Positions 13,332 to 61,946 of a stretch of 64,000 bases of DNA are shown one piece after another. Position 1 is the stretch's first letter, and each line of letters opens with the position of its first letter. The notes beneath the pieces are model-generated. The model worked only from the letters and a program-made list of their open reading frames with translations, was not told the DNA's origin and searched no databases. Origin of the DNA: Kappaphycus alvarezii (taxonomy: Eukaryota > Rhodophyta > Florideophyceae > Gigartinales > Solieriaceae); assembly GCA_002205965.3 (NCBI GenBank), contig NADL03000620.1, forward strand, positions 1,922,001 to 1,986,000. The letters run 5' to 3'. Made by a program: the position numbers and the translations under genes.

Positions 13332-14210
13332 AAGAACGCAATGCAAGAACGAATTCCTCTTGGGATTCGAGGAGGCAGGCGTTTCGCGCGTCTATGGCCC
13401 TCCCGGGAGCCAAGGAATGGGTGTATTGTCCCCCATGCCCCGGACTACAGACAAGCATTGACCCTCGAGAATTCTCGGTGTGGCGCCAATACTACTGTCA
13501 AGTCCCACTTTTTCAGCCTGGCACGCCATACCCGAGAAGGAATTGCCCGGACACACTCGATGTACATGGCGATCATCTGATGCTTGCATGGAGCCCAACG
13601 GATCAACCGACACGATCGCCAAGTAACCCTTCTCGCGAAAGACCTGGCAAGAGCTGCTCGTCATCCTGCTGTAGCCACGCCATGGTCTCCACCGCACGAG
13701 ACCAGACATCCAGGCAATAGGAACCAGCGGAGGGACCGACTTTTTTGATGTTACCTTCGTGAATCCCCTCGCTCCCTCCAACAGAAGAGTGAGGGCCTTC
13801 AACCCGATGTCCTCTCTGAATGCGGCGCGAAATGCAAAGCAGAGAAGATATCAATCCTTTCTCGCGACCTCCACCAGAGGTAGGCTCGTGCCTGTGCCAA
13901 TCTCCACTCTTGGAGGTTGGCACCCGGATGCATGTGCACTGTTAAATGACGTGGCAAGGAACGTGGCTGTGGGGGCACTGGAGACGTACGGGAAGGTTCG
14001 TGGGGTTTTGATGCAAAGGCACGCTGCAGCAGCCGTCATGTCCAATGCGGCCTGCTTGATGGCTGGCCTGAAGGTAGCATTTTAGGGAGCGTAGTTCCTT
14101 CCCCATTACGGTGTCGGTATACCCTTTTTGAGTCGATTATGGTTGTCTGGAAAACCATGGGATAGATCGGATATACCTTCCAAGAGTAAAACACCCAAAC
14201 GTTCCCCCCC
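13332..14210 (+). mobile_element. LINE A copy 1: 5'-truncated RLE-type LINE, 879 bp
   Basis: This segment lies precisely between two copies of a 13-bp target-site duplication. It encodes the C-terminal part of a LINE protein: GAKEWVYCPPCP near 13405-13440, a DVHGDHL-type zinc remnant near 13557-13577, and the endonuclease C-terminus with a stop at 14083-14085. The roughly 125-bp 3' untranslated region ends AAACGTTCCCC, with no poly(A). The upstream part needs frame changes, so the copy is dead, but its last frame is open. The same 3' end is seen at 29.5, 35.7, 36.3 and 61.8 kb. Confidence 0.85.
13759..14085 (+). pseudogene. C-terminal endonuclease-end fragment of LINE A
   Basis: This open frame of 108 codons is a fragment, not a complete gene. 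The sequence just upstream gives DVTFVNPL, the D-V-T core of the restriction-like endonuclease. AARNAKQRRY near residue 22 matches the A-x-x-A-K-x-x-R-Y segment, and GGWHPDA lies at about residues 52-58. These are typical of the extreme C-terminus of this LINE class. The ATG at 13759 is internal and not a real start. The frame ends in TAG, with the family's common 3' tail directly after it. Confidence 0.7.
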
Positions 14211-16994
14211 CGAGACACGAACCCGCACGTCCCTAGCGTTTATCTCCTCCCTCCGACACCGTATCAACCTCGCGCGACAAGGCCAATGGCACGACATTTA
14301 TACGCACTGCCTCGATGCGTTCCCCCCCGTTCGGAGCACTCCTACCGGCCCCACGCTAAATCCAGCGTTGTCAGCGCTATTTCCGCGAAGGCAATGTTTC
14401 CAGGGCCACTGCTGCCCTCCTTGAGACTGCCCCACCCGTCACTCCTTCCCCAACAACCCTCCCCACCCTACAACGCCTACACCCCTCCCACTTACACCAT
14501 CCACCCTTCTCCCCCGGTTGAGCTACCCCGACCTGCACCCTCGCTGAATCCACAATCCGCCGCTCTCTTCAAGGCCTTAATCGCCACTCTGCTCCTGGCC
14601 CCTGATGGTCTACGTCCTTCTATTCTTCGCATCCTCGCCCACGCTCCGGCCGGCGCGGAACCACTTGCCAGTGCTCTCTCCTCGTTTACCGGTTTTGTCA
14701 ACAAGCTGGCCAACGGCGATATTCCGGCCTCCTTTCAGCCCTTCCTCTCCGGTGCATCGCTTATTGCACTCCCAAGGACAGCCTAGACCCTCACCGCCTT
14801 CGGCCGATTGCTATCGGGGTGTTATACCGGCGATTTGTTGCACGTCTCCTCGCCGCTCGCCTAGCACTGACCCGCTCTCTTATCCCACCTCCGTCCCTCC
14901 AATATGCAGTCGGCTCCAAGAACGGTATTGAAGCCATTATCCACCCCTTCGCACATCGGCATCCGCACATCGGAACAGGACCTAATCTCCTGAAGATCGA
15001 CCTCACCAACGCCTTTAACAGCGTCGAACGGCTTTGCTTCCTTCAGCAAGTTTCCGATCTCGCCCCGGACGCCGCCCGATTCGTGCACTTCACCTATGGT
15101 AGCCCCCCCACCTGTACTTTGGCCCCTACACATACTATCCAAGACAGGGACCCACCAAGGCCCCTCTAGCCATGCACCTCTACTCACTCGGCATCCATTT
15201 CTCCAAAGGCTGCAGCGATCTTTTCCCAACACTGTGACACGCGTGGTACGCTGACGACGGGAACATCATTCTCCCGTCACCCGACGCGCCTCGACTCCTC
15301 CAAATGATAGCAAATGAAGGACGTCCATACGGCATCCACATCAACATGCAAAAGACCGAAGCATGGTGGTTCGGCCAGAGCTCCTACCCAAACCTTCCTT
15401 GCAAGATTGTCACGGCTCCCGCAATCAACACCCTCGGCTCACCCATTGGTACGATCCGGGCTGCCTGTCCCTCGTCGAGGACCGCCTAACTACAGCTCGC
15501 GCTATCTGGACTGCTCTCCCTACCCTCCGTGACCCACAGACTGCCTTCCATCTCCTACGCCATTGCGCCAGCGCATGCCGCCTGATTTATACTCTTCGAA
15601 CTACCCCACCGCACTTAACCCTTTCTACGTCAGCTATGTTTGACCGTGAACTGCGAGGGGCCTTTCAAGAGATTCATCGAGAGCTGACGGACGGCTCCTG
15701 GCTCTGTGCTACTTTGCCCTTTTCACTAGGTGGACTTGGGCTCACACTCACCTCACCCATCCGCTCCGCCACCTACCTCAGCTCTCTCCTAAGCACCTAC
15801 CACCTCTCCCTCGACCTGTTGCCGCCCATCGACCACCATCTCCTACCCAACGAGATACGACGACCCACCAATCTATCCCTCACAATGTCATTCCTGCCGA
15901 TCTTCGGCTCCAACCTCTCCTTGCCCGCCTCCCCACGACGGTCAAATCCAAGGCGTCCAGACTACCCTCACATCCGCCATCCATCATGAACGCCACAAAA
16001 CATATCTCTCCTCTCCCCGCAATACGAAAGTGCAGCTCACGACTCGCCCGGAACCTCAGCTGTCGAAACGGTCCGCCAACTCACCCTTTCTCACCCTCCC
16101 GGACTCCCGCGACTCCACCCGCATCGAACCCCAAATCTGGACATACATGATCCTGCTTCGACTTGGTCACCCGTCTTCAACGGCCGGGACCACTGCCCCC
16201 GGTGTGCACTCTCCCAAGCTCGACCCCGCCCCTCCTCGACCCACTCGGGAGACATGCTATCCACTGCCCAGCAATGGAGGGATTCCTCCGACGCCACAAC
16301 CACCTTCGACAAACTGTATACCCTCCTCCGACATCCTTCTGTAATGTTGCGCCCGAAGCTCGAATATACCTTCCCCTGCGAAGCCCACCTCCCGTACTCG
16401 GAACGCCGCCGAATGGACATCCTCATTGACGACATCGAATTCTCCTCACGTCCCTGCGCACTGACGTCTTCATTGCAAGCCCCTACACCGCACGGGCCAT
16501 CTCCCACTCTCGCAAGACCTCCGGAGGGGCTACCTGCCCATTGAAGCCTCGAAAACTGCGCTGCCCTCTGTGGGACGATACAAGCCCAATTCTATCCTCT
16601 TGGATTCGATACTCACGGAGCCATCGGCAAACCTGCCCGTGAGGCCCTAGCCAAAGTCGCCTCTTTTTCGCTCTCCGCCGCGGGAAACCCCCATCTGATG
16701 AATACCACCGATTGGTCACCACCCTCGCTTCCTCGTTCTACAGCTGACGGCTCATGCCGTATCTCGCCGTGCTTTGTCTCTCACATCACCTGATGCTTGA
16801 GTGACCAGCTGTTTAGTGACCATTTAATAAAAGCGTTGTTTGTTTGTTTTGACAGAACGGGTGATTGGGCTTTGGATGCTGATGGGTGGCGGAGGAGGTA
16901 GACTGCGTCAGTTATTGTTGGATGAAAGGGTAAAGTGAGTTGTGGAAAGTCTGGATTGTCTGCACACTTGATTGCATGCCCCACTGGAGTTCAG

Positions 16995-17255
16995 ACTACA
17001 GTACAGTACAGTACAGTATATACTGTACAGTATTAAACATCAGATCTGGCACTTGCTTTACCAACGGTGATGATCAGTTACTAAGTTACAGTTACAGTAA
17101 GGCCTCGTCGTACTGTAAGATTATATTTGCAGATCTGTGCAAAACTCAACTGTAATTGTACATCAAAAGTATCCATGATTGGTCCATGTGCTCTACATTA
17201 CAGAACAGCGCACTTTTGTTGACATTGCGCGACAATATACAGCACAGTACAGCAC
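16995..17255. repeat. ACAGT pentanucleotide repeat clusters, left of the BTB-like gene
   Basis: Perfect and near-perfect tandem ACAGT/ACTGT units occur at about 16998-17035, with looser copies at about 17083-17120 and 17232-17255. The sequence is self-complementary (TACTGTACAGTA), so hairpins can form. The same motif lies on the far side of the gene remnant and near 39.9 kb. Confidence 0.85.
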
Positions 17256-17459
17256 TTTCAAAATAGCGAAATAGCGTGCATAGTGGTCACTGCCAGGTTT
17301 ACATTAGAGCTTGTATACACACGGAAGAGAGGAAAACAGAAAAATACCTTCTAACCGTCTCGTCGTCGCCCCGACACCACCACTCTGCACCAACCTTCTC
17401 CCTTCACCTCCCCCCCCCCCCAATCTCCCTAGCCCTGTTCACCTTCCGCCAACCCCCCA

Positions 17460-20430
17460 TGCCGCGCCTCCAACCCCATCCGCATCGGCCTGTGGGAGCT
17501 TCACCACAACATTCTCCGACCCTCCCATTGTCTTCTCCAACTCCACAACACCTCTCTCCTAACCCTTCCCTTCACCCCTGTCACCCTTCATCTCACGGGA
17601 AACGCCCCCACCACCGAGCCCCCCTCCACCTCGCCCACCTCTCCATCACACTCCCCCGTCACCTCCTCATGTCCGCGGGCGGTCCCTTCCGTGCCCTAGT
17701 CTCCCCCCTTCCTCGAATCCCGTCAAACCTCCATCACCATCCACGAATCCCCGCAAGCCTTTTCCCACATCCACCGTTTCCTCACCTGTCAACCACTCTA
17801 CCTCAACACCGCCCCGCCAGATCTCGCCCTCGTAGCCGATCGCTGGGTCTCGTCACCCTGTTCGACGCCCTCTTCCTGCATGCTGAAATAAGGACAGTCC
17901 CCTCAAATCATGGGTTCCCCTCCAAACCAGCGACCTCATCCTCAAGTTCCTTCCCATCATGTCCCGCGTCTCCGTTCCGCCTCGCTTCAAACGCTTCCTC
18001 GCCATGCGTCTCGCTTTGGATTTGGAGCTCGTCGACGCCTTTTTCGACACTTGCGACCGCGACACATACACCACCATCTTTCTCATCAACAACATGATCC
18101 ACAAGTCGAGTCCCGTCGCCACAAGCTTGACGGCAAAGCCACTACTGCAAAAGCCGCGCGTGTGCGGCGGTTGCACCCGATGCTCCGGGTTCCGCAGTCG
18201 TCCCTCATTCTACCGTACTGGCTGCCTCTGTCTTTGCGAGCCCTGAACACGAGTTCATTCCGATGGAACGCTCACCGGTACCCCGGCTACTCCATCCCCG
18301 GCCCATCCCGACTGTCTCCAGTGGGATGGCCACGCTACCGTCCTCTGCGTCTGCGCAACTTGCGAATGGAGATGCTGACGGGGACAGTCAGCATGTGGGT
18401 CAGAATTGGGAACAGACGCGGGCGGTGGAAATGGGAACCAGGGATGAAAGCAGTTGAGGTTAGTGCAGGGGATGCCGAGGTGCAAGTCGGCGAGGAACCA
18501 GCAGTGGGGGAGACGGATGGGTTCCCAGTGAATCAGCTACGGCGCTAGTCGAGTTGAGCGGAGCTGATTCGGAGGGGAGCTATACGTCTTTTGATGGAGA
18601 CCAGTCGGAGGAGAACACTCGAACGGATCGGGCGAGCACTGGCCGACGGATGCGGTGGAGGGAGAGAGGACGAGATAGATGCGATCCGAAAGCCTTGTGT
18701 GCCCTTGCGCCGTATCCGACTGAGAAAGGAATGGCACCGGGAGTTTGACATTTGGCGCGTGTTTTTTGCAGCAAAAGATGATGCGAATGTTTGTTCACTA
18801 CTTTCGAATTACGGGAGACGGGATTTTTCGTCTGTCTGTTGGATTTGATCCTGGGAAACTGGAGCCGACTTTGACGATGACTATGTGGTGGAGCTGTTGC
18901 GGCAGGTAGATTGTTTTGGGAAGAGCCACATATGATATGCTTTCGCCCGAGTTGACAAAAGAATGGACCCCAAGAGCTTGGCGCTTGCTTGCGTTGGCGC
19001 AATTGCAAAGGATAGACATGGAGTAGATGTGAGGATGACGTGGCGATACGGAAGGTTGTGTAGAGATTTGTTAGAACGTGCCGCGCAGCTGGCGAATAAG
19101 ACGGACGAGAGTGACGGGAATTCGACTCATAGTTCGGATGACGAAAACGAGCTTGGCTTTTCAATGGAATGGGACGGGAGAGGTGGGGACCAGGGGTTTG
19201 ACTTTGGAATGTCACTACATTGCACGGATCTAGATCCGAATGAGATGACTGCTCTGACGCTGAATATTCGGCTGCTGGACCCAGTGGGGAGGTGTTTGAT
19301 AAAAAGGCGGGGCGGAGGGAGGTAACAAACACGGATCAAGGTGATCGAAAGTGGATGCGGATGCAGTTTGGAGGATGGGGATGAATTCCAGGGGTTCACA
19401 GCGAGCCCAACGATGAATGCGGAGGAACGCGTATCGGAACTGGATTCATTTCGCGGGAGGGGATGTCGATTCACGGTTATGGAGAGTGAGCAGCTTGAAG
19501 AGTGGATGAAGAGACACAAGATACACTGTGGGCTGGTGTTTCAGGTGCGACTGTACATCTTCCCTGGCGAGGACGGACGGAGAAGAGGGGAGAGGGGGGA
19601 TGAGAATAAGGGCAAATGCGTGTGCGGTGCTTGTGAATGTGAAGCGTGTGAGGAGGAGGCGGAGGAATTTTTGTAGAGAGTGGGAGATGAGGATAATCAT
19701 GGTTGGGAGACGGAAAAGTCTGAGCGGTGGATGGCGGGAAATGAAATGGATTTACGTGAATAGGAAGGATGAGTGTGGGAGAAGGAAGGGCTTGCGTTGT
19801 GGATGTAAGTTTGCGTTACTGTGCGATGATGACTTGAAGATGTGATGGAAGAACATGTAAACAAGGAAACACAGTGGTCGATAGACAGGCGGGCCACTGG
19901 ACATGTGTTGTTGTCACGTGTATCTGCGACACACGAGATGATAGGGGTGGGTGTAAAGTGGTTTACACAGTTGCAGTATGGGGAAGATGAAGAGGGATGA
20001 TGGAGGGAGGGGAGGTGTGATTGCGTGGACATTGGTGGGGACATTGCGTGGGTGTGGTTGGAGAGTTTGAGATACGGACAGCGAGCAGCCGTATTTCAAA
20101 GGGCGGAGTTTGTGTGGCAGGATGGAGTGAATGAGTAGGTGGACAAGAGTGTAGAAATGTGCAGTGGTGGTTGAATGGAGAGGAATTGGTTTGTAGAAAT
20201 TCTAACATTAAAAGAGAGAGTGCAAGCTGTTGTGGCTCATTGCAACGTTGAGGGTACGTTGCTGGCTGGGCGTGTGTATTGTGATGTATGGTGAGGAGAG
20301 ATGTGGAAAGGGAGGTTGAGGGGATTGATTTGTGGGGCAAATTGTGGGGCAGGAAGGTGGGCAAGGCAGCTGGGGCGGTGTGTGTGTCGGAGAAGCGTTG
20401 GAGAGTAGAGCAGTGAGAGCATGGCGAAGA
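17460..20430 (+). pseudogene. Decayed host gene, BTB/POZ-domain-like protein
   Basis: A GC-rich island shows coding character on + in alternating frames. At about 17640-17880 the frames read LLMSAGGPFRALVSP, then ESRQTSITIHESPQAF, FLTCQPLYLN and ALVADRW. This order resembles a BTB/POZ fold (a held hydrophobic anchor, F-x-A-L, E-S-x-x-x-x-I-x-I, F-L, L-A-D-x-W). RFKRFLAMRLALDLELVDAF near 17985-18045 resembles a following BACK-like helix region. Later open pieces at 18591-18848, 18963-19325 and 19341-19676 look like genuine protein with acidic linkers. Coding-like frames (GVKWFTQLQYGEDEEG, VVAHCNVEGTLL) continue to about 20430. At least six frame changes and several stops separate the pieces. 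Introns could account for some, but consensus splice sites were not obvious. BTB proteins usually act as adaptors or regulators. The family call is moderate; that the gene is host-derived is an inference. Confidence 0.42.
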
Positions 20431-20504
20431 GTATGACTTTTTAATTCACTCGGTTTTCAGGTTTCAGGTTTCAGTCGGCAGGCCACGGAGACATGGGTGG
20501 ATGG

Positions 20505-20695
20505 GAATATATTGTACTGTGCGGTACAATTTGACGTGTCTCGCAAAATTGATCGGTTTGTTTCGCAGATTTGTCGTCTGAGTTGTACTGTATCATACAC
20601 AGTCATGTAAAGTTGCAGTTGTTACAAAACTGTCATGTCACTCTACTGTACTGTATCGTACTGTACAGTACAAGTACAGTACAGCACGCCAGGGG
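20505..20695. repeat. ACAGT pentanucleotide repeat clusters, right of the BTB-like gene
   Basis: TGTACTG/CAGTACA words occur at about 20511-20530, 20583-20592 and 20643-20688, including TACTGTACAGTACAAGTACA. They mirror the cluster to the left of the gene remnant. No transposon structure was confirmed. Confidence 0.8.
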
Positions 20696-20699
20696 ACTC

Positions 20700-21500
20700 G
20701 GTTGTACTGTTGCCCCGTGGGGTACTGACCCGTCAATTCAACTCTTTGGATCCGTCTGCCCTTTGTGCCCACTGTAATCAAAGTCTTCTTACTGCAGTGT
20801 GCCTATTCGCGGGGTGACGGATGAGACATTAGTCAAGCACAAAATTGAACGCCAGACTCAAATTGTAATGCACTTTCCTATATTCATAAACAATCGGGTA
20901 ATTCTACCAACGTTGATCCAACTTTGGTCCACCAACTATTACCAAGGAAGTATCCTCTACTGGGGGGGGGGGGGCACGGGGGTTCGTTTACTGTAACAGA
21001 AAAGCTGGCTGATACCTACTCAACTTTTCTGGTGGTAGTGAGCGCGTGCGTGAAGGGTTCTGGCCGGCCCTGATGGCCCTTTGCACAAATCAGTTCTCAT
21101 TGGTTGGGTGCAAGGAGGTGGTACAGTATACGCATACAGATCCCATGTACCATCTGCTTGGCAGAATGGGCAATGTCGTCTCCTCTAAGAGTCATCCTAA
21201 CGTCCCCATTACTGAGACGCGGTTGCGAGGAACGGAGGTTGATAGAATTAGCTTTGCACTTTGAGGTGGTGGATCACCGGTTGGAGGGCGAGAGGGACTG
21301 ATGCGGAGATTTATTGGACCATGAGTTGTGCCGGGGACCAGAAGAGGGATCTCTCGCTGGGAAGAATTTGCAATGGTTAAATGGGATATCATAAACGACG
21401 GTATTTCTTGCCAAATATACCGGGCGAGATTTGTTTATTATGAGATTTGCAGAGGTGTTGCTTAACTTCAGTTGCATTTGTAACCTGCAACGATCCTGAA
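20700..21500. other. Spacer with a short dispersed repeat
   Basis: No gene is recognised. A G-run at about 20961-20972 is followed by TTACTGTAACAGA and GGTGGTAGTG words near 20990-21040. Diverged versions of these recur at about 36069-36118 in the same order, so this is probably the edge of a dispersed repeat. Confidence 0.3.
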
Positions 21501-27500: not shown

Positions 27501-29538
27501 ATTATTTGATTTCCCATTGGATTTTAAATATAGATGGAGAATCAAAAAGAGAACGTCAAATTCAAGCGCTGATCAGGGGCAAGGTACTTGATTATCTCAT
27601 CTGGAAGCATCCTTTGATTCTGGATAATGAATAAAAATTAAGGAATCAAAAGTTTTGTTCTTGTGGAGAATCTAGGCACAGTGGTTGCTCCTCAGAAGAA
27701 TACTGCGACTTTTTTGCGCTTATTCAGGCTATGAATAGCCATTAGAAATTATTCGGGGTCTTTATGGGTGCGGCATATTATAGGTTTGCTGCACTATTTA
27801 CGAAAGCATTTTTTTAGCCTAGCAAACGAGATCGTGAGTGAATGATTTTCCTGTTACTTTCCTTTGCGAACACAGGGAGCATGTTTACTTCTTTTGAGGA
27901 AGGTAAAGGAGACTTTTTGCGTCATTAAAAGTGGGAGGAGCAAGGCGGAATTGAACTATTAATAGAAAGGATAGCGGCTGGGAAGGGTGGAAAATTCCAA
28001 ATCTGTACTAATATGCAGATGAAAATTTAGGAAACAGTATTTTCGAGCCACTGGTGTTCATTTGAATTTGACAACGTTCTTTGAAATGGGGCTTGTATAA
28101 CGAATATTCAAGGAGTACTATTTATGATTAACATTTGGGCGTTCCCATTTGGAGAAAGCAAGGATAGTTCAAGATATTGATAGCATAAAATTGCGGGGGT
28201 TGTTGAAAACGGTGGAAACTGACAGTAGTAATCCCATTTCCCTATCTTCTTTGTAGTACTATAAAGGTAATTGTATTTACGACTGGTACGCGAACACAAT
28301 GTAGATGAAGAATTTACAAGAAATCAGATATTTTTCTTCAAATGAATTGCATTGGTTTCTTTCATACCCAAAATAGGAACATAATCTATGCAAATAAATT
28401 TTAGTACGAAAAATGCTCAGTGGAAGGAACGCAATATTACGAAAGAACAGGAATATGCAAGATAGGTTATTATAATAGGTCAGAAAGTTCCGAGAAATGC
28501 TCAGAAATACCTTTCTATGCCCATTTTAAGTCATTCGTCGTTACTTTCTGGCTATCTGGTCTAGCTCAAAGAGGGGTACAGTAATAAACGCTAGTATCAT
28601 ACTTCGGAAGAATTAATAGATCAGGACAAATAGGGTAAGTTAAGAGCTGTAATTCTGGAATCGGAGCATTCTCTTAAAAAATGTAATAAATAGCAAAACA
28701 TCCAGACGCGCTGATACAGCTAAAACGGATATGGGTGAAGAATATTTTAGGACTAATACTCAGAGCTGAAATAGTTGAATTGAAAAATCATTATTCGCAT
28801 GCTGATATACGCAACTTAAGGTGAAGAGATCAGAAAATATCCGTGAAAGTAAGATATTTCTAGTATTAGGTCAGCGGAGCTTTAAATGTTTTAAAGGGTT
28901 GGTCTAAAGCTGTATTTCGCATCATGGATGCTTACTTTTTCCACGTAATGAAAGCACGGGTTGAGCAATATCCATTGACTCTATCGCTTTTTGTCACCAA
29001 AACAAAAAGTTTAGTTTCAGTCATCGCAATTACTATAATCAGATCAGTTATCTTCGCCGATGAAACTTCCTCAGTTTCAAAATCGCTTTCATTCCCCTTT
29101 ATTTTGACCCTCGAGTCCTTTCATTTATTCATGTTCGATACAGCGATTTTGTAAGCCAAATGGGTGTAAATTTCAGCCTTTTATAAACCAAATATGCGTG
29201 AATATCTGCTCTGAACTTCCATGCAGATATTAACAAAAAGTTGTTTTAAATAGAATTCCGAATATTTGAATCACCATTAGTCTGTGATCGCCAGTTTCAA
29301 CCAGTGCAGTAATAACTAATTCTGGTCATCAATATCCATTTCAAACTATCTAAAATTTCCATTTTTATGTCAGAAGCTTCTATCTATATGTCTCCGATCT
29401 TCTGCGGATCCCTGTAGCAATTTGGAGCCTATGAGCACACCCAGTTCAGCATCTGTACAATTTGGAGAACGCAAGCCCGTAACTCGCCCTACTTCAATAT
29501 GGATACTGTAATAGCTTATAGCTTTGCGCTTCCTATTC
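21500..29538. other. AT-rich, stop-dense block without recognisable genes
   Basis: Composition falls sharply in GC after about 21.5 kb and stop codons are dense in all six frames. The longest open frame, 26885-27397 on minus (170 codons), has a simple Ile/Ser/Asn/Lys-rich composition with no motif and is probably chance. The words AATATTA and TAATATTA recur irregularly at about 26.69-27.40 kb. The block may be heterochromatic or decayed repeat sequence. No centromere- or origin-specific signal can be claimed. Confidence 0.5.
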
Positions 29539-29808
29539 GTGTTAAATTAAGTGGCAAGGAACGTTGCTGTGAGGGCACTGGAGACGTACGGAAAGGTTCG
29601 GGGGGTTTTGATGCAAAGGCCACGCTGCAGCAGCCGTCATGTCCAATGCGGCCTGCTTGATGGCTGGCCTGAAGGTAGCATTTTAGGGAGCGTAGTTCCT
29701 TCCCCATTACGATGTCGGTATATACTTTTTGAGTCGATTGTGGTTGTCTGGAAAACCATGGGATAGATCGGATATACCTTCCAAGAGTAAAACACCCAAA
29801 CGTTTCCC
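29539..29808 (+). mobile_element. LINE A copy 2: 5'-truncated, 270 bp
   Basis: It begins within the last codons of the LINE A ORF (equivalent to about 13940 in copy 1) and runs through the same 3' untranslated region to CGTTTCCC. By eye it differs from copy 1 at roughly ten positions, including a one-base insertion in the coding part. CTTCCTATTC at 29529-29538 and CTTCCTACTC at 29809-29818 are a likely 10-bp target-site duplication (9 of 10). It lies in AT-rich sequence, so it is clearly a later arrival. Confidence 0.85.
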
Positions 29809-29819
29809 CTTCCTACTCA

Positions 29820-35694: not shown

Positions 35695-35858
35695 CGGCCT
35701 GCTTGATGGCTGACCTAAAGGTGCCTTCTAGGGAGCGTAGTTCCTCCCCCATTTACTGTGTCCGCATGTATCGTTGAGTCGATTTTGGTTTTCTGTGAAA
35801 AGTTAAGGATAGATCGAATATATCTTCCAACAGTAAAAACACCCCAAACTTCCCCCCA
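35695..35858 (+). mobile_element. LINE A copy 3: diverged 3' end
   Basis: It shares GGCCTGCTTGATGGCTGACC, then AGGGAGCGTAGTTCCT, TTGAGTCGATTTTGG, AGGATAGATCGAATATATCT and a final AAACTTCCCCCC with the other LINE A tails. It carries more substitutions than copies 1 and 2, so it is older or from a sister subfamily. No clear target-site duplication was found. Sequence at 35500-35690 directly upstream is coding-like but does not match the LINE A ORF end seen in copy 1. Confidence 0.75.
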
Positions 35859-35859: not shown

Positions 35860-36292
35860 CAAAGAAACCCCCTATTTCCCCCATGGGCGAAACTTCATAT
35901 GCTTTTGTGTCTATTTATCCATTGGGGGATTGGAGATTTCACTGCATTTACGGGAGACTGGGCTTTGCAGGGACGGCAATGTAGTTGGTATCCCGGTAAT
36001 CAGACCGACATTCTCAGGAAACAATCTCATGAGGACGGTGCTGGAAAAGGGGGAAAACGGGGGGATCAATTACTGTAACAGATATGGTGGCTGAAACTCA
36101 GTCATCTTGGATGGTAGTGTGCATTCACGTGATATATTGCGTCAAGCGCAGATGGCGCTCCACTCTGCTGCAAAACGCTGCCGTCGTAATAGCCCCGTGG
36201 CCTATTCGCGATGATGTTTTCAGCTGCAAATTCGAGAACTGGAACTATAAACTTTAATGTCACTATAGCACGCCTTTACCGGTTATTCTACA
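35860..36292. other. Spacer between two LINE A tails
   Basis: GC content is higher than in the surrounding AT-rich block. It contains the TTACTGTAACAGA ... GGATGGTAGTG words shared with about 20990-21040. No gene is recognised. It could be part of a non-LTR or other repeat whose ends are lost. Confidence 0.3.
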
Positions 36293-36446
36293 GCCATGGC
36301 TGGCCTGACGGTAGCCTTTTTAGGGGGCGTAGTTCCTTCCTCATTACTGTGTCGGCATACCTTTTTGAGTCAATCGATGTCGTCTGGAAAACCATGGGAT
36401 AGATCGGATATATCTTCCAAGTGTAAAACACCCAAACCTTTCCCCT
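36293..36446 (+). mobile_element. LINE A copy 4: 3' end, about 154 bp
   Basis: It starts near GCCATGGCTGGCCTGA, which matches the last codons of the LINE A ORF, and ends AAACCTTTCCCC. Differences from copy 1 are moderate. TTCTACA at both edges (36286-36292 and 36447-36453) may be a short target-site duplication. This copy lies only about 435 bp from copy 3 and has the same orientation. Confidence 0.78.
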
Positions 36447-36449
36447 TCT

Positions 36450-38690
36450 ACACCTACGAGCGCTGCTATCCTTTGCCTTCAATCGTTTGAATAGAGGTTG
36501 GTACTGGAGCCAAGAAGTGTTACTTGCCTATACGGGTATAGCCTCAAATTAAATATTTTTTTGGTATCGCTTAACAACGTTCAAGCCGCTTATTAGCTGT
36601 TGCCAATACAAGCACATCTTGCTCAGCGGCTCCAGTAGTAGATCGCGACATATTTAAGAGCTAGATTCGTTGCGTACAAGGTGTCATTGATGCGTCATTA
36701 ATGCTTCGGGCTAGAATCGCTGAAAAGAACGAGAGCAAATATTGAGTGGCTATACAGGTAAAAACTCGACATAGTCAACACTGGGACGCATTAAGGATAT
36801 CCGATATTTGCAACATGTTCATTTCTTTTACAGAATAAAATCGTCTTTCTCTAACCATAAAAAGCAGCTGTATTAAAGCCAGCAATGGAAAAGTACAATA
36901 GCATGCGGATATAGAGGTTCGTAACTGGAGGTAAACAGAACGGAGACCTTTGCAAATGTGTTTCATTCCGGCCTCTCGAATTGATTATCATAGCAATCAT
37001 GGAAACTCTGATATGATATGGATGCTCATATACTAGGTATGAACTATTCAGATGCTTTTTACAAATCCACATGGTCCCACGAAATGTTTCATACTGCTCA
37101 GCCTCTATCCTGTCATCTTGGAGAGGCTCGATTAATTTTGTAGAACCAAATTAGCATATCAGCATAGTGACCAAGTCAGCATTTGAAAAGCGTGATATAG
37201 TCACGTCTCCCAGGGCAGTTTAGGATTCTCATATTTTGGCATTTAGGAATTGAGGTAAAATCATAGATGGTTATCGAGCAGGGGAGAGACGCTGAGGGCC
37301 ATTTTCTAGAAGGGATTTCATCTGAAGCAACAATGATGCTGAATTGCTGTGAAGTAGACACTTTAGAACCTTGGAACCTTTAGACATTGCATGCGGTACA
37401 GTACATATTTTGCACAGAATAACCTCGGTGGTTTGCCAGGCTTTTTCGTTCTTGAAACGTTTTTCGAAATGATATGAATTTAAACGTTTATCAGAGAGTT
37501 GGACGTCACACGGGAAAATGAAGAAAGTTCTGCAATTTCTTATGAAAATTAATAGAAATTAATTATACTTGACGAATCTCGAGACCTCCATTAAAGGTCT
37601 CCATTTCTCTCTTCTCTCTCTTGAACAGAATGAATCTGCATTTCAAATAATATTAAAATATATATTAAGAAATCCTGAATTTTTTTCTCAAATTCTAAAT
37701 TTTTTCGTTACCAAAATCCCCCATTTGTGACGGTATTTTTGAAACATTTTCATACAACGGAGCTTTGCCAGGCTTCTTGTGGTCCTGTAATTAATATCGT
37801 GTATGATACATTAATTGAAATCGATTTCCTCCTGAGGTCAATGCTGCCGCTAAAATGAAAAATAAGTAACTGCTCTCATTAAAAAAGTACATTTGCCCCA
37901 ATCTGCCTTTCGACTCATGTCTCTGTTAAGTAAGTATAGCCATAATGTCTTACATCAACAGCATTCCTGTTGTTTGCATTTACCCTACTGGAATCCTTCT
38001 CTTCTCCTGGAACCAACTGCCAACATTCCAATTGTAGCTCAAACCACAACTCCCTAAAATTCCCGCACCCTGTGCCGTATGTCGCCGAAAACTGTGAAAT
38101 AAGCCATAGTGCCCCAGCAAACTACCCAGCAAGTTCGTATTGCAGCTTTCCTAATAATCCTCAAAGCAACCTGTTCAACTGGCGGACGACCAACCAAAAT
38201 CATTCAATAAGATGCACAACGCGGCGTCGACACCACTACTTGTGCAGTAGAGGCATCAAACCATCAATTTGATATCTTCTCCTGCACAGTGACACACCTG
38301 AGAGAACCAACATTTCTTGCCCCGTACGCTACTTTCCTCAAACATTTCTGCCAAACCACCCCTTCAGTGCGTAGATGTCAGATTTTTCACGAGTCGTGTG
38401 TTTTGTCACTGTAGTAACGCCCCGTCGCATGTATAAACCAAAGAACTGACAACAGCACTGATCCACTATTCCCCCTACCATGCAACTATCACCTGACAAA
38501 TCTCATCTGAGATCTTATCCAATCGCACTTATTCTATATTCATACCTCAAGTTCGAATCGTCCAGACATTCATACCTGCGGGAACCATATCCACGTTTGA
38601 TTCTCAGCAAAGGCCCTTTGCCTATATGATACGTATCTTATCTCAAATTCGTCCTCACACTTTCCAACTGCAATCCTCCGTCAAATCTAT
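36450..38690. other. AT-rich spacer upstream of the secreted-protein gene
   Basis: No supported gene. Towards the right end the sequence becomes C-rich. An open + strand frame at 37970-38272 (100 codons, Ser/Asn/Pro/Cys-rich) has no recognised domain and may be promoter-side sequence or a remnant. Confidence 0.35.
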
Positions 38691-39880: not shown

Positions 39881-39881
39881 T

Positions 39882-39946: not shown

Positions 39947-39956
39947 ACCGTGGTAA

Positions 39957-52600: not shown

Positions 52601-55280
52601 ACCGCAACTATTTATTACGTGTTTTCGTCTCATTTTGATTCCATTGGGTTCACAGTACTATTCCGCTTTTGATTATGCAATACATCATGTTTCAGCACCG
52701 ATGCCGAGACAAATTCTTTTTATTTCTCGGTGTTGCAACATTTGGGCAATTTGATGCTCTTGAAAGTTAAAATCTCATATTTCTGCTCTCAATTTTCCTT
52801 TTCCTCCGTAGAATTGTGACCAGTTTAACGTTAAAAATGATTTTATTCGCATTCTTACACAGATTGGATTTGCTTAGGACTAATCCTGCTTGGCTGGGTA
52901 TCCTTTTTTAAAAATCTTCGCAATCCAAACCTTAATTTTAATTATTTATAATAAAAAGACAGTAAAATAAGCTGATACATCTACTCCTTCATGATATATT
53001 ACAGGATCTTCGATATTATTGTTGCTGTCGACGCCTCAGAAAACATTTCAACAGAAAGCAAGTCCTTTTCAACTGATTAACCATATCGATACAGTTCTTG
53101 AAAAAGATCTAAGAGTAAACGCTTTACGGCTTTGACGCAATCACTAAATGAGTCTTTCTGATATTATTGAACTTTTCTAGCAACGTTCTCCGTCATTGAC
53201 TGACGATATTGTGATATAATGCGGCCACTGTTACCACAATCCCAACAAACTCTATTCTCACGGATTTTCCCTAGGCATGCTGTAGGTTTCGTTGTTCCTA
53301 GAATTACCACTGTGAAGATTGACTGTAATTGAACGCAGGGATCGCCTATAATAGTTCTTTATAGAATAAAATCTACCATATGTGTGACTATGAAGTGTAA
53401 GGTCTGTATCTGAGATTGATGTCATACACAGATTCCTCTGATCCCTCATTCGTCCAATTTTCTCATCTCGCTCACATTGAGAGGCAGACATGCACTTTCT
53501 GTAATATGATTGGTAATTTGATTCAACAGAACATGCTCTACTGCACGTTATGAGCTTAGGAGAACACAGTAACGGGGTACTGAAGATATTCAATTGCACG
53601 CCTTTCTGAACGAAAATAAGGTGGTTTATCTGGAATGAGCCCAGATATTTCCCTGCAAACTTTCTCAATTGCACTTTTTAAAGTACAAGTGTGAGAAATA
53701 TACTGGGTAACACGGTACTTTCGAAGATATATGAAAATTACATTTTGCTTCGGCAATGAATTATACTCAATTTCAGTATCTTCAGGGTTTGTGAATAGTG
53801 CTCATACAACATTTCACATTATTTGTGTTGAATTTATTTGCGCTTCTTCTAAAAGGGTGGTGTAGATACTTGAGTTTTTGTATATTATTGAGAATGTAGT
53901 CTTGGAAAGCATATTCTCATTCCTCTATAAACTTTTTGTAATATTCAGCTGTGTTCCCGAATATTTCGCAATATTTTCTCTGAAGTAAACCTACATTTAG
54001 TGTGAGACCTTGTCTGCCGACGATGTGGAGGGTTGGTTGGTCACTCAAGTGGAAAATTTAGCAATTAGAGCTGTTTTAAGGTGATCCAATTAGTGACGCA
54101 AGATAATTGAAATAGCCATCAAATTGCGCTGATGCTTTACTGAGTTCACTACTTCGGACCACAATTGACTCGAAATTATTTGAGAGAACACTTATGGATA
54201 ACAGTTTTAACATCTCGTTCGGCAAGGACAACAATCAATTTGCAAATATTTGAAAAATTACTCAGAATCTGTTCCGAAAAAAGCATTTGGATGGAGAGAG
54301 CAAGCCCTTAGTTCCTCACTAGAGAGGTAATTATCCCAATAAAACGCTCGAAGCAGTCCGCAAGAGACTGATGCAATTATGCGGTCTGTATAACATATTG
54401 ACCGAAACCATACTTCAAAAACTTTTCGCGACTCCAAATTAATCTTGATTTAAGGCTTCTCAAATCATACCATTTTGAGTGTTGTTGCAACATTTTTATG
54501 TAGCGAGGCGTGCCATTTTTGTTCTACTTTTTTAAAATCCAACTGGAAACCCATTTATTTGAGAAATTTCTTTTCTTATGCAAGACAAGTAAAAGAAAAG
54601 TTCGTAATAAATATTCACCTTCAACTCTTCCTCTACTGCAGAATATCTCTTTTGTAGAAAGTAATTGTATTTATCGCAAAAATTTTTTTGATCTCACACT
54701 GAAATTGCTAGCAAAACCCTAGATTTTCAATTTTGTTACCTCTTCTGAAATAACATTTGAAGGAGCTATTGCACAAATTTTTACAAAATCATCCGTGAAA
54801 CTTTAATAAATTTCGACATGGTTTAAATCAGGGCATCTGTCCGATAATTTTTTCCACCTTTATACTTAACACTACAATATCTACCCTTATTTTATTGATT
54901 AAAATGGAGTTAGTTCACTGCGAGCAGTGTGAAGTTTGGGGCTCCCCGAATCCTGCATTCAAACCATTTTATTTCATTAATTGGGGGCGATTTGTGTTGA
55001 GAGCGCCTCTATGTACGCTTTTTGAGAGAGTGTAGACGGTTTTATCTCTAATTTTAATTTATGATTGTTCAATTCTCGAGTGGCGGTATGCCAGTTCTCC
55101 TTTACTCGTATACTGTGCCCTAAAACTTGTACTAATGGCTTACCTCCCTTTATGTCAATCAAAAATAACAATCTAATAAAAAAACATTCACTTGTAACTT
55201 CTAGATAAAATTCTGCACTCATTTCGGCTATATGTTACTAGAGTTCACAAAATGAGGCCGCAAAGGTACTTTTTTGAATT
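49700..55280. other. AT-rich, stop-dense block
   Basis: Composition and stop density match the 21.5-34 kb block. The longest frame is 53258-53674 on minus (138 codons), with no motif and low-information composition. No repeat or gene can be supported. Confidence 0.45.
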
Positions 55281-57130
55281 TCAGAGCAGTTCTTGACACA
55301 AGTTCAAGTTCTGCCCTAATCTCGAGACTGGGGAGGGATTCGGAGCTTCCTTTGCATTTCCTTCTATGTTACATCAAAGTTTCTTCTGCAGGAGTCCTCA
55401 ACGCTTGCTAGCCACCGGGGAACTATCGGCCAATGACTAACCTTCCTCTGCAGTTCCCCCTGCCACCACTGCGAATCTCTTTAGCACTTTTGTGAACCTC
55501 ATCAAATACCATAGCCTGGGTTCCCTCCCCTGTGTCGTGAACCGAAAAGTTCTTTCTCTAACCGTTTCTCTGCGGCTGCGCTTACGAGTGGATCCGTTCT
55601 GGCGCCAACGCTTCCAGGGTACCGACCCGATCTGCCGGATTGCATGACCGTTCAGAGGAGAGCTTTGAGTAGATGGTCCCGAGTTCAGGCACTGATGCTA
55701 GGGAATATGTCTGACACTATTTTGATGACATAGCAGCGTAACATCTTACCTAGCTCCTCATGAAATACTTCGGAATGGTGTGGGGATAAATAGCGAGAGT
55801 TGTGGGGATGGTGTTATGTCTTCAGTCAGTTCGAAGCAATGAAAACTGGTTATGAGCTAAATACAGGTCCTGAAATTACCACACGCAAATATCCTTATCT
55901 AGTAAGACCTCTTTAATCTTCCTGCTAGCATTATCTGGCAAGCGGTATAGTTTCACAGGTAGTACATATTCGCTCTTTGATTTGTTTTTCAGAGATCAGT
56001 CTGTAATCTGTTGTTCTTTCGCGAGCCCGACGATGAGTTTCTAGTCCTTATCACTTTTGCTGTTTTATTCTTAGATTTTCCCGTCATTTTTTTCATCCGC
56101 GGAGCTTTGAGCGGTGAACAGTTTGCTGTCGGGATCCTAGTATGCGGTAGGTACCCCACTGGTCTGGCTCCAGAAATGGGAGTGCTACCTCGCCTCGGAG
56201 CTTCACATCCACAGAATGCCATACTAGATCGGTAATTTCCCTCATCTTTTCATTAATACTACCCCAATGAAGAATGTAATGGGTCCATCTCTGATAGCAA
56301 GGAAACTAATGTGAGTTATGCTTTGAATTGTTGTGCTCAGAAAATTCTGAAGGCGGCCAGAACAGGACCTATTGATTCTTTCTACGATAATTGCACGTTT
56401 TAGTACTATTCGACACTAAATTGATATTTCAAACCAGCTCAGTCGAAACGAGGTTCGGCAATTGCCTTTTATCTAAAATAGTGGATATGTATTTTCCGTA
56501 GATCATCGCATGCTTCAATTTAAGGGCAAATGCCAATTTTGAAAGAATAAAATTGGCGGGGATCTTATTCTAGTACGAGAGTGGAGTAAAGGGACAGCGA
56601 AGGGTTTCTTTAGCCGTATAAGAGTCCCCTGGCTCGCTTTTGCATTAGTGAGCCAAAAAGTGACTTATTATGTGCCTCTTTGAGCAATGTAATCTGTTTG
56701 TTGTAACTATTCTTACATTTTAGCTATTCTTAGCTATCTTTGAGACAGGGTAAGAAATCAATTTGACAGAATTTAGAAAAAATTCCCGCTGCTAGTTCTC
56801 AGTTATTCGAATGCTCTGCGTCTAGTATCTATTTTTGATCCCCTTAGCGTGTTGGGGAGAACTTGGACATGAAAATAGATTTTAGGGTACACCCATCGGG
56901 CTCTCATGTAATTAAAGCACTAAGTTAACAAGTGCAACTACCAAAAAGGATGATTTTTCCATTGGGCTGGGCGTCTGCAGATCTGCAGTTTCCATAGAAT
57001 CATCCTGAATTTGAATTTATCCTTTTTGTAGTCCATTATTATTGCAAACCGGTCCTTTCCGCAAATTAATGTTCCCTTCATCCCGAGATTTTTCTTAACC
57101 TCTCCTTTTTCAGGAGGTAGAATAGGCAGA
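55280..57130. other. Mixed-composition spacer
   Basis: A GC-richer patch lies at about 55300-55720 with no clear reading frame. At 56000-56235 both strands carry open frames of about 75 codons without recognised domains. Nothing firm is supported. Confidence 0.3.
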
Positions 57131-57132
57131 GA

Positions 57133-57588
57133 ATGAGGAAAGCTGAGGTGGATATAGAGGGATCTGAATACGAGAGGAATTGGGTGGAGCCACAAGAGCG
57201 AATGGTGTACAGCCGTAGAGGGGATATTGTGGAGGGCAGAGAGGAGATTGGGGGTGTAATATTAATCTCTTACTCCTCTATTGCGGATGGAGCGGAGGTT
57301 GAGGGCCTTGAAGATAGTTTGGAGGATCTTGATATGTCCGAGAAGGCTATCTGTCATTCTAGGTCGTCCACCAGAATTTGTGCGGACTGCATTGGTGGTA
57401 TGGACGTTTTGGGGGAACTTCTTGGCTCTGATCTCGAGGAAGAATATTTTAGGATGAAATCTGGATATTTATCGTTAATGTACTTACTGCCAGTCTTTCT
57501 CGACCATATAGTTGCCTTTAATGTATTTTATGTAATTTATTATGTTTTTTCAGAATTTATAGTTAGTCAGAAAGTCTTTACAAGCTGA
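57133..57588 (+). CDS. Unrecognised 151-codon ORF, acidic with a C-terminal hydrophobic segment
   Basis: This is the longest clean frame in the right-hand AT-rich block, and its composition is more protein-like than its neighbours. Residues 1-110 are charged and acidic (for example EVEGLEDSLEDLDMSEKA at 55-72), with Cys at 74, 83 and 86. Residues 112-145 form a hydrophobic stretch (SLMYLLPVFLDHIVAFNVFY) that could be a membrane segment. No domain was recognised. It may be a gene fragment, an exon of a longer gene, or part of an unrecognised element. Directly upstream there is only AT-rich sequence. Confidence 0.25.
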   Translation: MRKAEVDIEGSEYERNWVEPQERMVYSRRGDIVEGREEIGGVILISYSSIADGAEVEGLEDSLEDLDMSEKAICHSRSSTRICADCIGGMDVLGELLGSDLEEEYFRMKSGYLSLMYLLPVFLDHIVAFNVFYVIYYVFSEFIVSQKVFTS

Positions 57589-57599
57589 ATAAAATGCTT

Positions 57600-60100
57600 C
57601 CTATAAGAGAAGAAAAATAAGTTAGGAGACAACCCCAAGTGCAGACCCAAGTAGCCCAGAAGTTGAAAGCCAACTTCCGCCCAAGGAGCGTTTATATTAC
57701 GTTATTTCTGAGCCTAGCTGGTAGGCCCTAGCCCTATCATACTCTCTTGTAGCCCCTCAGCCCTCATATGTATTCAGCTCTACTCTTTCCTCACAACCGA
57801 ACTTGTGTAGAACTCTTTTCGCTTGCAAAACTTACGTTTTGGCATAATTTTTCTGATAATATCATCCTCTGGATATTTAACCCTATCACATAGCACTTGA
57901 GTATTGAAACTACTTACTAAGGCGCACTAAAAAATCATTGCAATGGTTTTGGGCGGACATATAGAGGTTAAAGGACGGCGTATGGCGGGTCCCTTCACAC
58001 TTGGTTCACCGTCTTTCAATCACGAGCTGCTGTGACAGGCCACTCTCTGCTGCAAATTTGTCGCAATAATGGTCTAAACCGCAACCACAAGGGTGTTCTA
58101 GGATATAGATTGATTTTTACGTCCGTATATGAACAGTATAGGCCTATATTGGAAAGAAAATGATTTGTTGTTGTCGGAGTTTTTAAAGCTGTCTAAGACT
58201 GGGATGTTTCAGGGTGAGTATGTCAAGTGTCAAAATGGATTTTTTTGTCGCAATTATAACATAGAAGCGCCTCTTTGTACTCTTTAGAGGAAGCGGATAA
58301 TCGCGTCCCTCATTTTTGTGATTCTTCCCTTTTCCAGTGGTCAGCTGCCGGTCCTCACTTCCGTAGCTGACGCAAGGTATCCCACATACACTAGCGACTC
58401 CCCTTCCTATATCCCAAATGAAAGTAAAATTCTGATAAATAATGATTCTTCTGCAACCTCCAGACAAATATAATGCACTCATCTAGACCAGATACTGCTA
58501 GATTCCACAGTATGGGCTGCGCAGGTAATATATGTGAAGCTTTGGCCTTATAATGCATTAAAATATCATAATAAGAGGGATTCCGAGGCTATATACTTTA
58601 ATTTTCGGAAATATACAGCGCCTGACTAGGTTTACACATTTCATTTAAAAATCAATTACAGTTAAGAGCCCAAACGTTACACTTGTTAAACCATTTTGGC
58701 AGCGATAGGTTGATACGTTTTGTACGCTTTAAATCCTGCGCTTTCGAAAATTCTGTACTTTGTAGTACCGGAACGGTTTCATTACCAAAATTACCTGACT
58801 TTCCAGACGTGCGAACGATTTCGAGTTTCTCAATTTCTTCCGTATGGTACGTACTGCACTGTACAATTGGCATTTTTAGGCCTTGTGAAGTCTAGAAAAT
58901 GTTTTATTCGGAAGACCTCACTTTCTTGAAACTTTGATTCTTTTAAATGTAATGGCTATCTCAGCGAAATACTAGGAACGCTGTTGGGATAAATCTGAGA
59001 TTTTTACAGTGGTTTCAGTCCCTCGTTTCTTATCCATGTCTTCCCACCTTTTTTATTTCGAAGAACCTATTTCTTGTCCCTTGCTTCCGGCTAGCCTAGA
59101 GAGCTTCAGTTTCGGAGGGTACGATGATAGCATCTACGATGAAACTCCTATGATCGGTAGATTGCAACTCGAAGGTTCTGTAAGGCTGGTGCTTCGCCTT
59201 TGTACAACTCGTGTCGTTGTCTCGAGGCGATGCTTGATGCGCTGCTAGCTGACCTTGTTTATTCGAGGTTCACGGGATGAAAGAAGAGTCGCGTCACCCC
59301 TCCCTCCCCACTTGCCCGATAAAGTCTATGGCAGGCCTTAGTGCACACGAGTAGGTTCCTAGAGGCGTTTTAAATCAGCACTGGGCGTTATTCCGAAGGA
59401 TCAGAGTAAAACAAAATGTTGTACCCCGCTTGCAATTGGACAGAAAGGCAAATCTAATAGAGAATTTGAAATTCCGTCAGATTGGAAGAACTCGCAGCAC
59501 TCACAGACCTTTTTTGATATACCAGGTGTGTGGTGTTTGGCGCTCACCTGTTAATCGAAGGTTGAACTGATTGATGCCGTCGGGAAGTCTGGAGCTTTAG
59601 GCACGGGTTTACATAGAAAGCTCAAAATTCCTCTAAACAGTACTAAAGTAAAATAGTCTGATTAAAACCAGTCCAACAGTAGCAAAATCGCCAACCTGCC
59701 TCCCATGACATCATCCGAACTGTAGCCGTGTAATAATAATTCGTGGCTCAATTTTGTGTTCAAAATTTATTACACCACATGCTGAAATATAGGTTTCTGG
59801 AGCATTTAAATCCCAATTTAATGTAAAACGCAAGTTTTATGGGAAATGAAATAGCAGTCTAGAAATCGTTCAATGGAAGCTCAAATTCCATATATTTATT
59901 AAAATATGTGAATGGCGCGAAAATATTGACGAAACTATTGCCATACAGATCATAATATAGCACATAGCCTCATATACAAGAATTGCAGGAAATCTCTAAA
60001 CCATGTGCCAATTTCGTAAAATACGATAATCATCTAAAAATCTGTTATCTGTTGCACAGATGTGCCATAAATAATCATTCTAACGAATTAGTCTTGTCGT
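57600..60100. other. AT-rich spacer
   Basis: No supported gene. A 79-codon + strand frame at 59009-59248 contains a protein-like run (LESFSFGGYDDSIYDETPM) without a known domain. Everything else is short and stop-dense. Confidence 0.35.
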
Positions 60101-60109
60101 AAATCATGC

Positions 60110-61430
60110 CATAAATGCACAGGAATCTCAACCGATCATTCAAGCAGCACTACCACCATGACATTCTTAGCCGAAAAGGCATTGAAAGCGCTGTATCTCC
60201 TAGCTGACGTTGTTGTCGCGCGGAACATGAACTCGACAAAGGAAATAACCTCCCCATCAGAAAGGACGCTGATGAGGAAAATTAAAGTCCATGTCCTCTT
60301 TTTGATGACGAGCAATGGTATAGTAAGGAAATAGTCGAAATGACCAACTTCGACCCACATCAATTTGAGGCAATATGGGGGGTTCAGTCGCACATTGAGG
60401 CGAACTATTGCAATATCCGCGGTCGAAAAAGTGCCCACGTGACGAAAGATGTCCTGTTTATGACACTCAGCCTACTGAAACATCGGGGATAGGGGGACTT
60501 TATGGCCAAAAGTTTTGATATGCAAACATCGTCATTCGAACGGCTTGTCTTCAATTATATCCGAATGTTTTCTGACGCCGTTTACGGGCACTACGATGAA
60601 TACCACGCTGACAACGACACGATGAAAGTTCTTTAGGATGAAAAAACTTTTCTCTCACTGACCAATGGCTTTATATGCTACTGATGTTACATTTGAACCA
60701 TCCTTTTGTCCCTCTGGATCTTTAGTCGAGGGAAAGAAATACTTCAGCAAAATGCATGGTCAGTATGGTTTTAAAGTTGAGGTTTCTGTTCTCCCAAACG
60801 GAATGTAGATTGGATGCAGTGCCCACGAACCGAGGTCTGTATCTGATTTCGCTATATTTCAGCAAATGCAATGGTTTCACATGCAATTTTTGCGAAACCG
60901 CAAGAAGAGCGAGAAGAGCGGTCTTTTGAAGATGATGGGCCACTTGCTGCAAAGCTTCCTAACCAAAGGGCCGCCTTTGTTTCAAAGTCTAGAGAGGAGC
61001 CAAGAATTTATTCATTTCATTCATCCTACCAACAAACCAAAGAATAGTTTTTTCAGTTTCACTTTGGTGGTGGGAAACACGCACATATCGAGTGACAGGG
61101 TTAACGCTGAGAAATTTTCGGCCGCATGTGCTCACTTTAGAATATTGTGGGCACAAAGTTTAGGTGGTAAGAAGCAAATTCTGGTTCTACTTCCGGCTTT
61201 GTCTTGGGATGGCTAATTTTCATGTGCGTTGCAATCCGTTACGTGCTGATAACGGGAGAATGTATCACAAAATCCAGAATCAGTGTTTCAACATCGGCTA
61301 GTCCCAGCTTGAGAAGCGTCGCCGAGTGCAAGCAAAGTATCGCGAAAAGCGGCGACGTCGCGTGGACATGCAGTTGCGTACGGCGGTAAATGACTGGTAC
61401 TACGCAGTCACCCTAATTCTGACTAAATGA
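60110..61430 (+). mobile_element. Decayed Harbinger-like DDE transposase
   Basis: The + strand carries a transposase in pieces. KSAHVTKDVLFMTLSLLKH near 60431 is the helical region before the core. YATDVTF at 60674-60694 carries the first catalytic Asp. KMHGQYGFKVEVSVLPNGM near 60751-60807 and HEPRSVSDFAIF near 60822-60860 follow, the latter with the second Asp. DRVNAEKF near 61096-61118 places the Glu. In another frame ANFHVRCNPLRADNG near 61212-61260 matches the block after the core in PIF/Harbinger DDE transposases. At least three in-frame stops and two or more frame changes are visible, so it cannot make a full protein. In a live element this enzyme cuts and pastes the transposon. Terminal inverted repeats were not found. 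Confidence 0.65.
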
Positions 61431-61831
61431 TATGTTTTTTGCAGTTTATGTGTCTTAAAAAGGTTTTATAATATCATACGTTGTATTCAAAAGAAATCTA
61501 AATAAGCACTTTTTTGGCTGTATTAGTGTTTGCGTACAGTATTAGTTAGTTGGGGTAGAGGAGACTGATTGATCAGTAGGTCAATATTTGGGTAGACCTA
61601 TTGTCATGCTGTCCACGAATTTTGACACAACAGGCCAGCCGACATCCTCCTCATGCAACTCCCTCGTGACCCTGAAGCCGGCGTCCCGGACCGGCCCATC
61701 GCATGTGATGTTCCCATGACGTCCCCATTTCTGCAATCCTCAGTCACGTGAGCGACGCAAGTCTCCGGGGGCGCTTCCGCCCTCACGCACCACCGCAAAT
61801 TCCGGGACCTACAACACAAGCTGTCAAGGCG

Positions 61832-61946
61832 CTTGGTGTCCTCGGTGTACCTTTTTTGAGTCGATCTTGGTTGTCTGGAAACCCATGGGATAGATCGGAT
61901 ATATCTTCCAAGAGTAAAACACCCAAACGTTCCCCTTGGTGTCCTC
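61832..61946 (+). repeat. 12-bp target-site duplication around LINE A copy 5
   Basis: CTTGGTGTCCTC occurs at 61832-61843 and again at 61935-61946, bounding the 91-bp LINE A segment exactly. The flanks are LINE D coding sequence. Confidence 0.9.
61844..61934 (+). mobile_element. LINE A copy 5: 91-bp 3' end only
   Basis: Only the last 91 bp of LINE A are present, starting GGTGTACCTTTTTTGAGTCG and ending AAACGTTCCC, with a 12-bp target-site duplication. This shows that the 3' untranslated segment alone was retained and that insertion does not require a poly(A) tail. It is the shortest copy in the window. Confidence 0.88.

Follow-up and report, generated by a model that had tools for sequence, protein, structure and literature searches.

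In a 64,000-nucleotide stretch of the genome of the red alga Kappaphycus alvarezii (contig NADL03000620.1, positions 1,922,001 to 1,986,000; hereafter the window), five copies of a long interspersed nuclear element (LINE), designated LINE A, share a 3′ end that closes on a short run of C and carries no poly(A). Following these copies through the genome, we consider it very likely that LINE A is an autonomous, early-branching non-long terminal repeat (non-LTR) retrotransposon, whose single open reading frame (ORF) encodes a reverse transcriptase (RT) followed by a restriction-like endonuclease (RLE), and which uses target-primed reverse transcription to enter scattered sites. The dispersal of the copies, their common 3′ end, 5′ truncation and flanking duplications, the preference for certain insertion sites, the variation of the C-run and the homology to RTs are evident from the genomic sequence itself.

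Copies in the window and across the genome

A blastn search of the window with the 3′ untranslated region (UTR) of the first copy (14086-14210) recovered five places, all on the + strand and the same as those reported in the initial annotation. Along the aligned tail, copies 2 to 5 were 96%, 80%, 88% and 94% identical to copy 1, respectively. Copies 1 and 2, for which about ten differences had been estimated, proved to be 95.6% identical across 270 bp, with approximately 12 differences. Direct repeats of 7 to 13 bp were observed on both sides of four of the five copies. Copy 1 (13332-14210), 5′-truncated and 879 bp long, lies between two instances of CGAGACACGAACC (13319-13331 and 14211-14223); copy 2 (29539-29808), also 5′-truncated, between CTTCCTATTC (29529-29538) and CTTCCTACTC (29809-29818), which differ by one mismatch; copy 4 (36293-36445), 5′-truncated as well, between two instances of TTCTACA (36286-36292 and 36446-36452); and copy 5 (61844-61934), comprising 91 bp of 3′ UTR alone, between two instances of CTTGGTGTCCTC (61832-61843 and 61935-61946). 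The repeats of copies 1, 2 and 5 adjoin the originally annotated ends exactly, and that of copy 4 is one base off at the end. Inspection of the flanks of copy 3 (35695-35857), the most diverged at roughly 81% identity to copy 1, revealed no clear target-site duplication.

Copy 1 retains approximately the last 250 codons, covering a Cys/His cluster and the putative RLE with a frameshift, together with the 3′ UTR and oligo-C end (14086-14210). The end of its RLE reading frame (13675-14082) matches residues 896-1031 of the full-length ORF, with 96% identity in the aligned stretch. This copy was inserted into another RT-bearing element, LINE B, and joining its flanks minus one repeat yields an open frame of 260 codons spanning the junction.

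We extended the search to the genome of 336 Mb in 884 contigs, and the tail retrieved 2054 candidates, of which 40 were scored; all 40 matched at E <=1.6e-54. The exact 28-base end occurred 435 times genome-wide, 209 times on the + strand and 226 times on the - strand, compared with no occurrence of the reversed control pattern, which excludes a chance origin of the shared end. Given this balance between strands, the uniform orientation of the window copies reflects no genome-wide trend. The family is thus large, and its 5′-truncated copies reach a common tail. In a set of 69 rows drawn from fetched loci (L001-L008 and L048 were omitted as repeats of others), copies began between 34 and 2926 bases ahead of the 3′ end; the longest starts are set by the limits of the fetched stretch, and one (L056, 2890) is a junction with another element.

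Both flanks were available for 52 of the 69 copies, after removal of two duplicates and of copies cut at an end. A match score of at least 9 for a target-site duplication was reached by 18 of these 52, compared with 0 in each of 200 shuffled pairings, and a score of at least 7 by 23, where the shuffled pairings averaged 0.3 and never exceeded 3. An exact repeat of at least 6 bases starting at the first base past the C-run was found in 21 of 48 copies (mean 0.23, maximum 3 in 1000 shuffles).

To the 21 copies with exact repeats we added two full-length copies and read the insertion preference from these 23 sites. When the sequence was followed leftwards from the nick and any C was skipped, the next base was A at 15 sites, G at 5 and T at 3 (p 0.002 for A); immediately ahead of that base stood C at 20 of 23 sites (p 7e-10). 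The first base past the C-run was T at 16 of 23 sites, as it was for 45 of the 65 distinct 3′ flanks. The resulting consensus is C-R^(C)-T, so LINE A is not site-specific yet not indifferent to its target.

In an all-against-all comparison of flanks, 15 pairs were alike among 53 upstream and 6 among 52 downstream flanks, including two pairs of duplicated loci (L019/L042 and L043/L044). The upstream likenesses were accounted for by nested LINE A copies, other repeats and these two duplicated loci. In this sample, homology continued past the C-run only at the two duplicated pairs and where a flank fell inside another repeat, and neither of the two results that the initial annotation had set out as refuting its reading was observed. 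The copies occupied 50 distinct sites. Several of these fall in other repeats, some of them LINE A or its relatives, and no single target recurs among many copies. An insertion hot spot was considered as an explanation for the flank likeness and rejected, as only two pairs (L025/L027 and L011/L021) nearly coincide, the members of each lying within about ten bases of one another in a repeat common to both, and no site dominates. In L025 (2882-2920) and L027 (374-612), LINE A runs antisense within related LINEs and sits at almost the same position in both, around their stop codon; this coincidence may reflect the C-R^(C)-T preference acting in an abundant target.

Among 11 other long copies, four (L065, L063, L062 and L060) were at least 99.5% identical over 2.7 kb to the full-length copy C642, and the lowest were approximately 94-97% identical. 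Judging from these identities, LINE A has been recently active, in agreement with the recent movement proposed in the initial annotation.

The full-length element and its protein

The first long copy examined, L014, was 5′-truncated, and walking upstream gave the 5′ end of the element. Two full-length copies were found elsewhere in the genome: C602, of 3761 bp, is flanked by the duplication GAATGA(C), and C642, of 3762 bp, by GAAGTCATTGA. The frame of C602 is broken by a frameshift, and C642 carries a single open frame of 1031 codons with its first Met at position 40. A third locus begins with the same first bases without a repeat visible by eye, and two further loci start about 20 bases later. 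By eye, C602 sits within an element of a third type that bears a YADD RT and an RLE. Roughly 1.5 kb of foreign sequence, perhaps another transposon, interrupts a further long LINE A copy (L017:827-2328), with a 5-base overlap at the join.

A Pfam search with residues 97-1031 gave a match to RVT_1 (E 2.1e-9), which was the sole match at E up to 1; no apurinic-type endonuclease domain was found in these residues. The best relatives among solved structures were R2 proteins (E 2.9e-8 as a single sequence and 5.7e-16 as a profile), below which the profile search ranked LINE-1 (1.9e-5) and chain 8gh6 (0.0022), the latter of which we take to be Bombyx R2. The catalytic motif of LINE A reads WYHDDGY. 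Leaving out loci that repeat others, we found this motif in 16 of 24 aligned stretches, including the relatives L012 (71% identity) and L022 (a fragment, 76% identity), whereas WYADD appeared in 4 stretches, each belonging to a relative with 28 to 39% identity, and the remaining four were altered or misaligned. A literature search of open-licence PubMed Central papers for YHDD together with 'reverse transcriptase' and 'non-LTR' found nothing, which is weak evidence of absence. No relative turned up when viral and prokaryote contigs were scanned with a single protein.

A putative RLE at the end of the ORF, as initially proposed, is indicated by motifs and by a sub-threshold alignment to the C-terminal region of R2. 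The best two chains in a C-terminal profile search were the same R2 proteins as above; the alignment covers 992-1147 in 9nl3, is colinear with the RT match and aligns the RH, PD and DVT residues. RH and D-x-T are kept in all 8 rows covering the region and RP(D/E)I in the 5 closer rows; we take these residues to be the RLE motifs. Between the RT and this putative RLE lies a Cys-Cys-His-Cys cluster at residues 845-864, which can be read as C-x4-C-x9-H-x3-C or C-x4-C-x6-H-x6-C. A scan of the 1031 residues with the single pattern C-x2-5-C-x8-17-H-x2-6-[HC] returned no N-terminal zinc finger and only the cluster at 845.

The 3′ end and the start of copying

In 67 of the 69 rows, the element ends in CACCCAAACG, followed by one to five T and then two to nine C. 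Even in 27 copies sharing the last 59 bases, the run still varied from T1 to T3 and from C4 to C8. The common 3′ end described initially therefore stands, whereas a single fixed terminal base does not. After subtraction of the Cs attributable to the target, 20 of 23 sites retained 3 to 8 Cs. The longest A-run after the C-run was 4 bases (two copies), and none was present in 55 of 65 distinct 3′ flanks, which bears out the description of LINE A as a LINE family without poly(A).

Upstream of the end, at approximately 15-20 bases, LINE A carries (C/G)AGTAAA. The motif CAGTAAA, followed by AAC near the end, is all that diverged relatives share with it, and was found in 7 of 13 of their downstream stretches, four of these coming from one subfamily. 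It was not seen in the other six (L012, L023, L025, L027 at 353 and 2081, and L028); in some of these, other elements break up the sequence. That one subfamily (L053:288-1190, L013, L019 and L024), with approximately 50-65% protein identity to LINE A, has a 3′ end, CAGTAAATTAACCCCC, that occurs 1653 times in the genome (control, 0) and appears to finish in ATTTACA instead of a C-run.

From these features we propose the following model, in which we infer the order of the enzymatic steps, the endonuclease activity and the recognition of the RNA. The LINE A protein would nick one strand at C-R^(C)-T, and reverse transcription would begin, with no poly(A) involved, inside the oligo-C that closes the element RNA at its 3′ end. 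Synthesis would frequently stop early, leaving 5′-truncated copies, and cleavage of the second strand approximately 6-13 bp away would produce the target-site duplication. Copying most likely starts inside the oligo-C with the aid of the primer-terminal G left at C-R^C-T: a single terminal G could pair with any C, and starts at different C residues would vary the 3′ length. Alternatively, the variable end may arise through slippage of the enzyme or untemplated addition of residues.

Other explanations were weighed as well. The first is that a folded 3′ UTR serves as the recognition tag, as in stringent-type LINEs, which we regard as possible if doubtful. Mean column identity in the 3′ UTR reached 94% across 45 distinct tails; however, this conservation may only reflect youth, the folding energy was no better than that of shuffles (z 0.56), and 0 of 18 predicted pairs were changed on both sides. 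That the 3′ end is the recognition tag for the RT at all, as the initial annotation supposed, is something we can only infer.

A second explanation, which we consider unlikely, is that the RNA is cleaved in the ordinary way at the AGTAAA hexamer, presumably a variant polyadenylation signal, and that the poly(A) is simply left uncopied. The position of this hexamer ahead of the end, and its recurrence in just over half of the downstream stretches of diverged relatives, fit such a signal, whereas the near absence of A past the C-run speaks against it.

It is far less probable that the oligo-C belongs to the target and that the enzyme merely picks C-runs. At 14 of 23 sites, at least one C of the run is also present in the 5′ target copy, which is above expectation (p 0.0003), with 3 Cs shared at three sites and 5 at one; nevertheless, at 20 of the 23 sites at least 3 Cs, and as many as 8, have no counterpart in the 5′ copy. 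Finally, we reject the idea that the short copies form a family of SINE-like (short interspersed nuclear element) non-autonomous elements sharing only their 3′ end with a LINE: although many copies are shorter than 300 bp and the tail alone is common to all, they follow LINE A to their own breakpoints, from 34 to 2788 bp and on into full-length elements, and among 53 upstream flanks no head common to many copies was attached to the tail.

Several observations weigh against LINE A as an autonomous RLE-bearing LINE with the end described above. The C-terminal profile match to R2 is sub-threshold (E 0.07), and structure prediction, run on residues 97-1031 by themselves and on the C-terminal 376 residues together with 11 sequences, gave two models too poor to use, each with a mean predicted local distance difference test score (pLDDT) of 39. 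The published CCHC knuckle between RT and RLE, CX2-3CX7-8HX4C in the excerpt of PMC5678591, is departed from by the Cys/His spacing of LINE A. Two of the 69 rows are off the terminal pattern, L021 being truly without a C-run and L028 having its C-run one base further on, and L047:299-440 has approximately 11 extra bases (AAAAGATCCCC) between the C-run and the probable target repeat CTGCACAGTCT. No exact repeat of at least 6 bases directly follows the C-run in 27 of 48 copies, which may be due to decay, to nesting of insertions or to uncertainty about 5′ ends. The copies studied are best-scoring matches, a sample biased to young copies. In addition, a second frame, of 150 codons, likewise spans the joined flanks of copy 1, so that the 260-codon frame across this junction is supportive only.

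Returning to the proposed start of copying within the C-run, we tentatively suggest that the oligo-C takes the functional place of poly(A). A nick at C-R^C-T would leave a G able to pair with any C, allowing priming that is specific in sequence and loose in register; together with YHDD and no N-terminal finger, this could mark a distinct lineage of RLE LINEs that gave up site targeting.

Neighbouring elements and comparison with known systems

LINE B, the host of copy 1, occupies 14606-15989 and 13112-13331 of the window and has a WYADD-type RT. The third RT/RLE element, with a YADD motif, is present at 2741-3685 on the - strand of the window and at L022:5396-7224, where the motif reads WYADDGN; its C-terminal part shows approximately 20-24% identity to LINE A. 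Overlapping long open frames at 4126-6936 (+) look retroelement-like by eye, and one of them, 4902-5669, gave no Pfam match. GTP_EFTU_D3 matches also came in pairs that have the same score and lie on different contigs (C541/C556, C634/C9 and C27/C497); along with the duplicated LINE loci, they suggest that haplotypes were left uncollapsed in the assembly.

With RLE LINEs, the R2 group in a wide sense, LINE A shares an RT of LINE type in one ORF, 5′ truncation, target-site duplications and a common 3′ end. Like R2 (R2Tg and other R2 proteins in PDB), it combines a single ORF with 5′ truncation, its RT matches these proteins best among solved structures, and its C-terminal part aligns, below significance, to their C-terminal region. 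Unlike R2, it occupies many sites, carries YHDD, ends in oligo-C and has no N-terminal zinc finger by the pattern scan. Some R2 elements end in simple repeats through untemplated addition, according to the excerpt of PMC7650587. In contrast to the R2 and NeSL clades, LINE A is not integrated in one repeated host sequence, as its 50 distinct sites demonstrate, and it differs from Dualen in having no apurinic-type endonuclease domain in residues 97-1031.

Elements of the NeSL/Utopia type have a single ORF with an RT, then a zinc finger and an RLE, as described in the excerpt of PMC4640811, an order matched by the RT, Cys/His cluster and putative RLE of LINE A. By the same excerpt, Utopia elements usually carry one to three zinc fingers at the N-terminus and have U2 small nuclear RNA genes as their target or preferred site, whereas the scan of LINE A returned no such finger and its sites share no target. 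In four of the five RLE-LINE clades, as this excerpt states, most elements keep to a specific target, and dispersed RLE LINEs are already known: many members of the HERO clade are not site-specific (PMC4640811, excerpt), and BLAG comprises non-site-specific R2-like elements of the German cockroach with N-terminal zinc fingers (PMC7650587, excerpt). LINE A resembles HERO as a dispersed RLE LINE and BLAG as an R2-like LINE scattered through a genome, both likened by description only, and differs from BLAG in the lack of an N-terminal finger in the pattern scan. Among the matches listed in a search of open-licence PubMed Central, judged by title and the start of the abstract, no C-tailed non-LTR element was found, which is weak evidence of absence. 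By the excerpted descriptions of known systems, the oligo-C end, YHDD and the missing N-terminal finger set LINE A apart. Collectively, LINE A is young, abundant and dispersed, with full-length copies, an open frame, a readable nick preference and a variable C-run, and it thereby opens two questions to testing: by what means such enzymes start copying in the absence of poly(A), and what disappears once targeting is abandoned.

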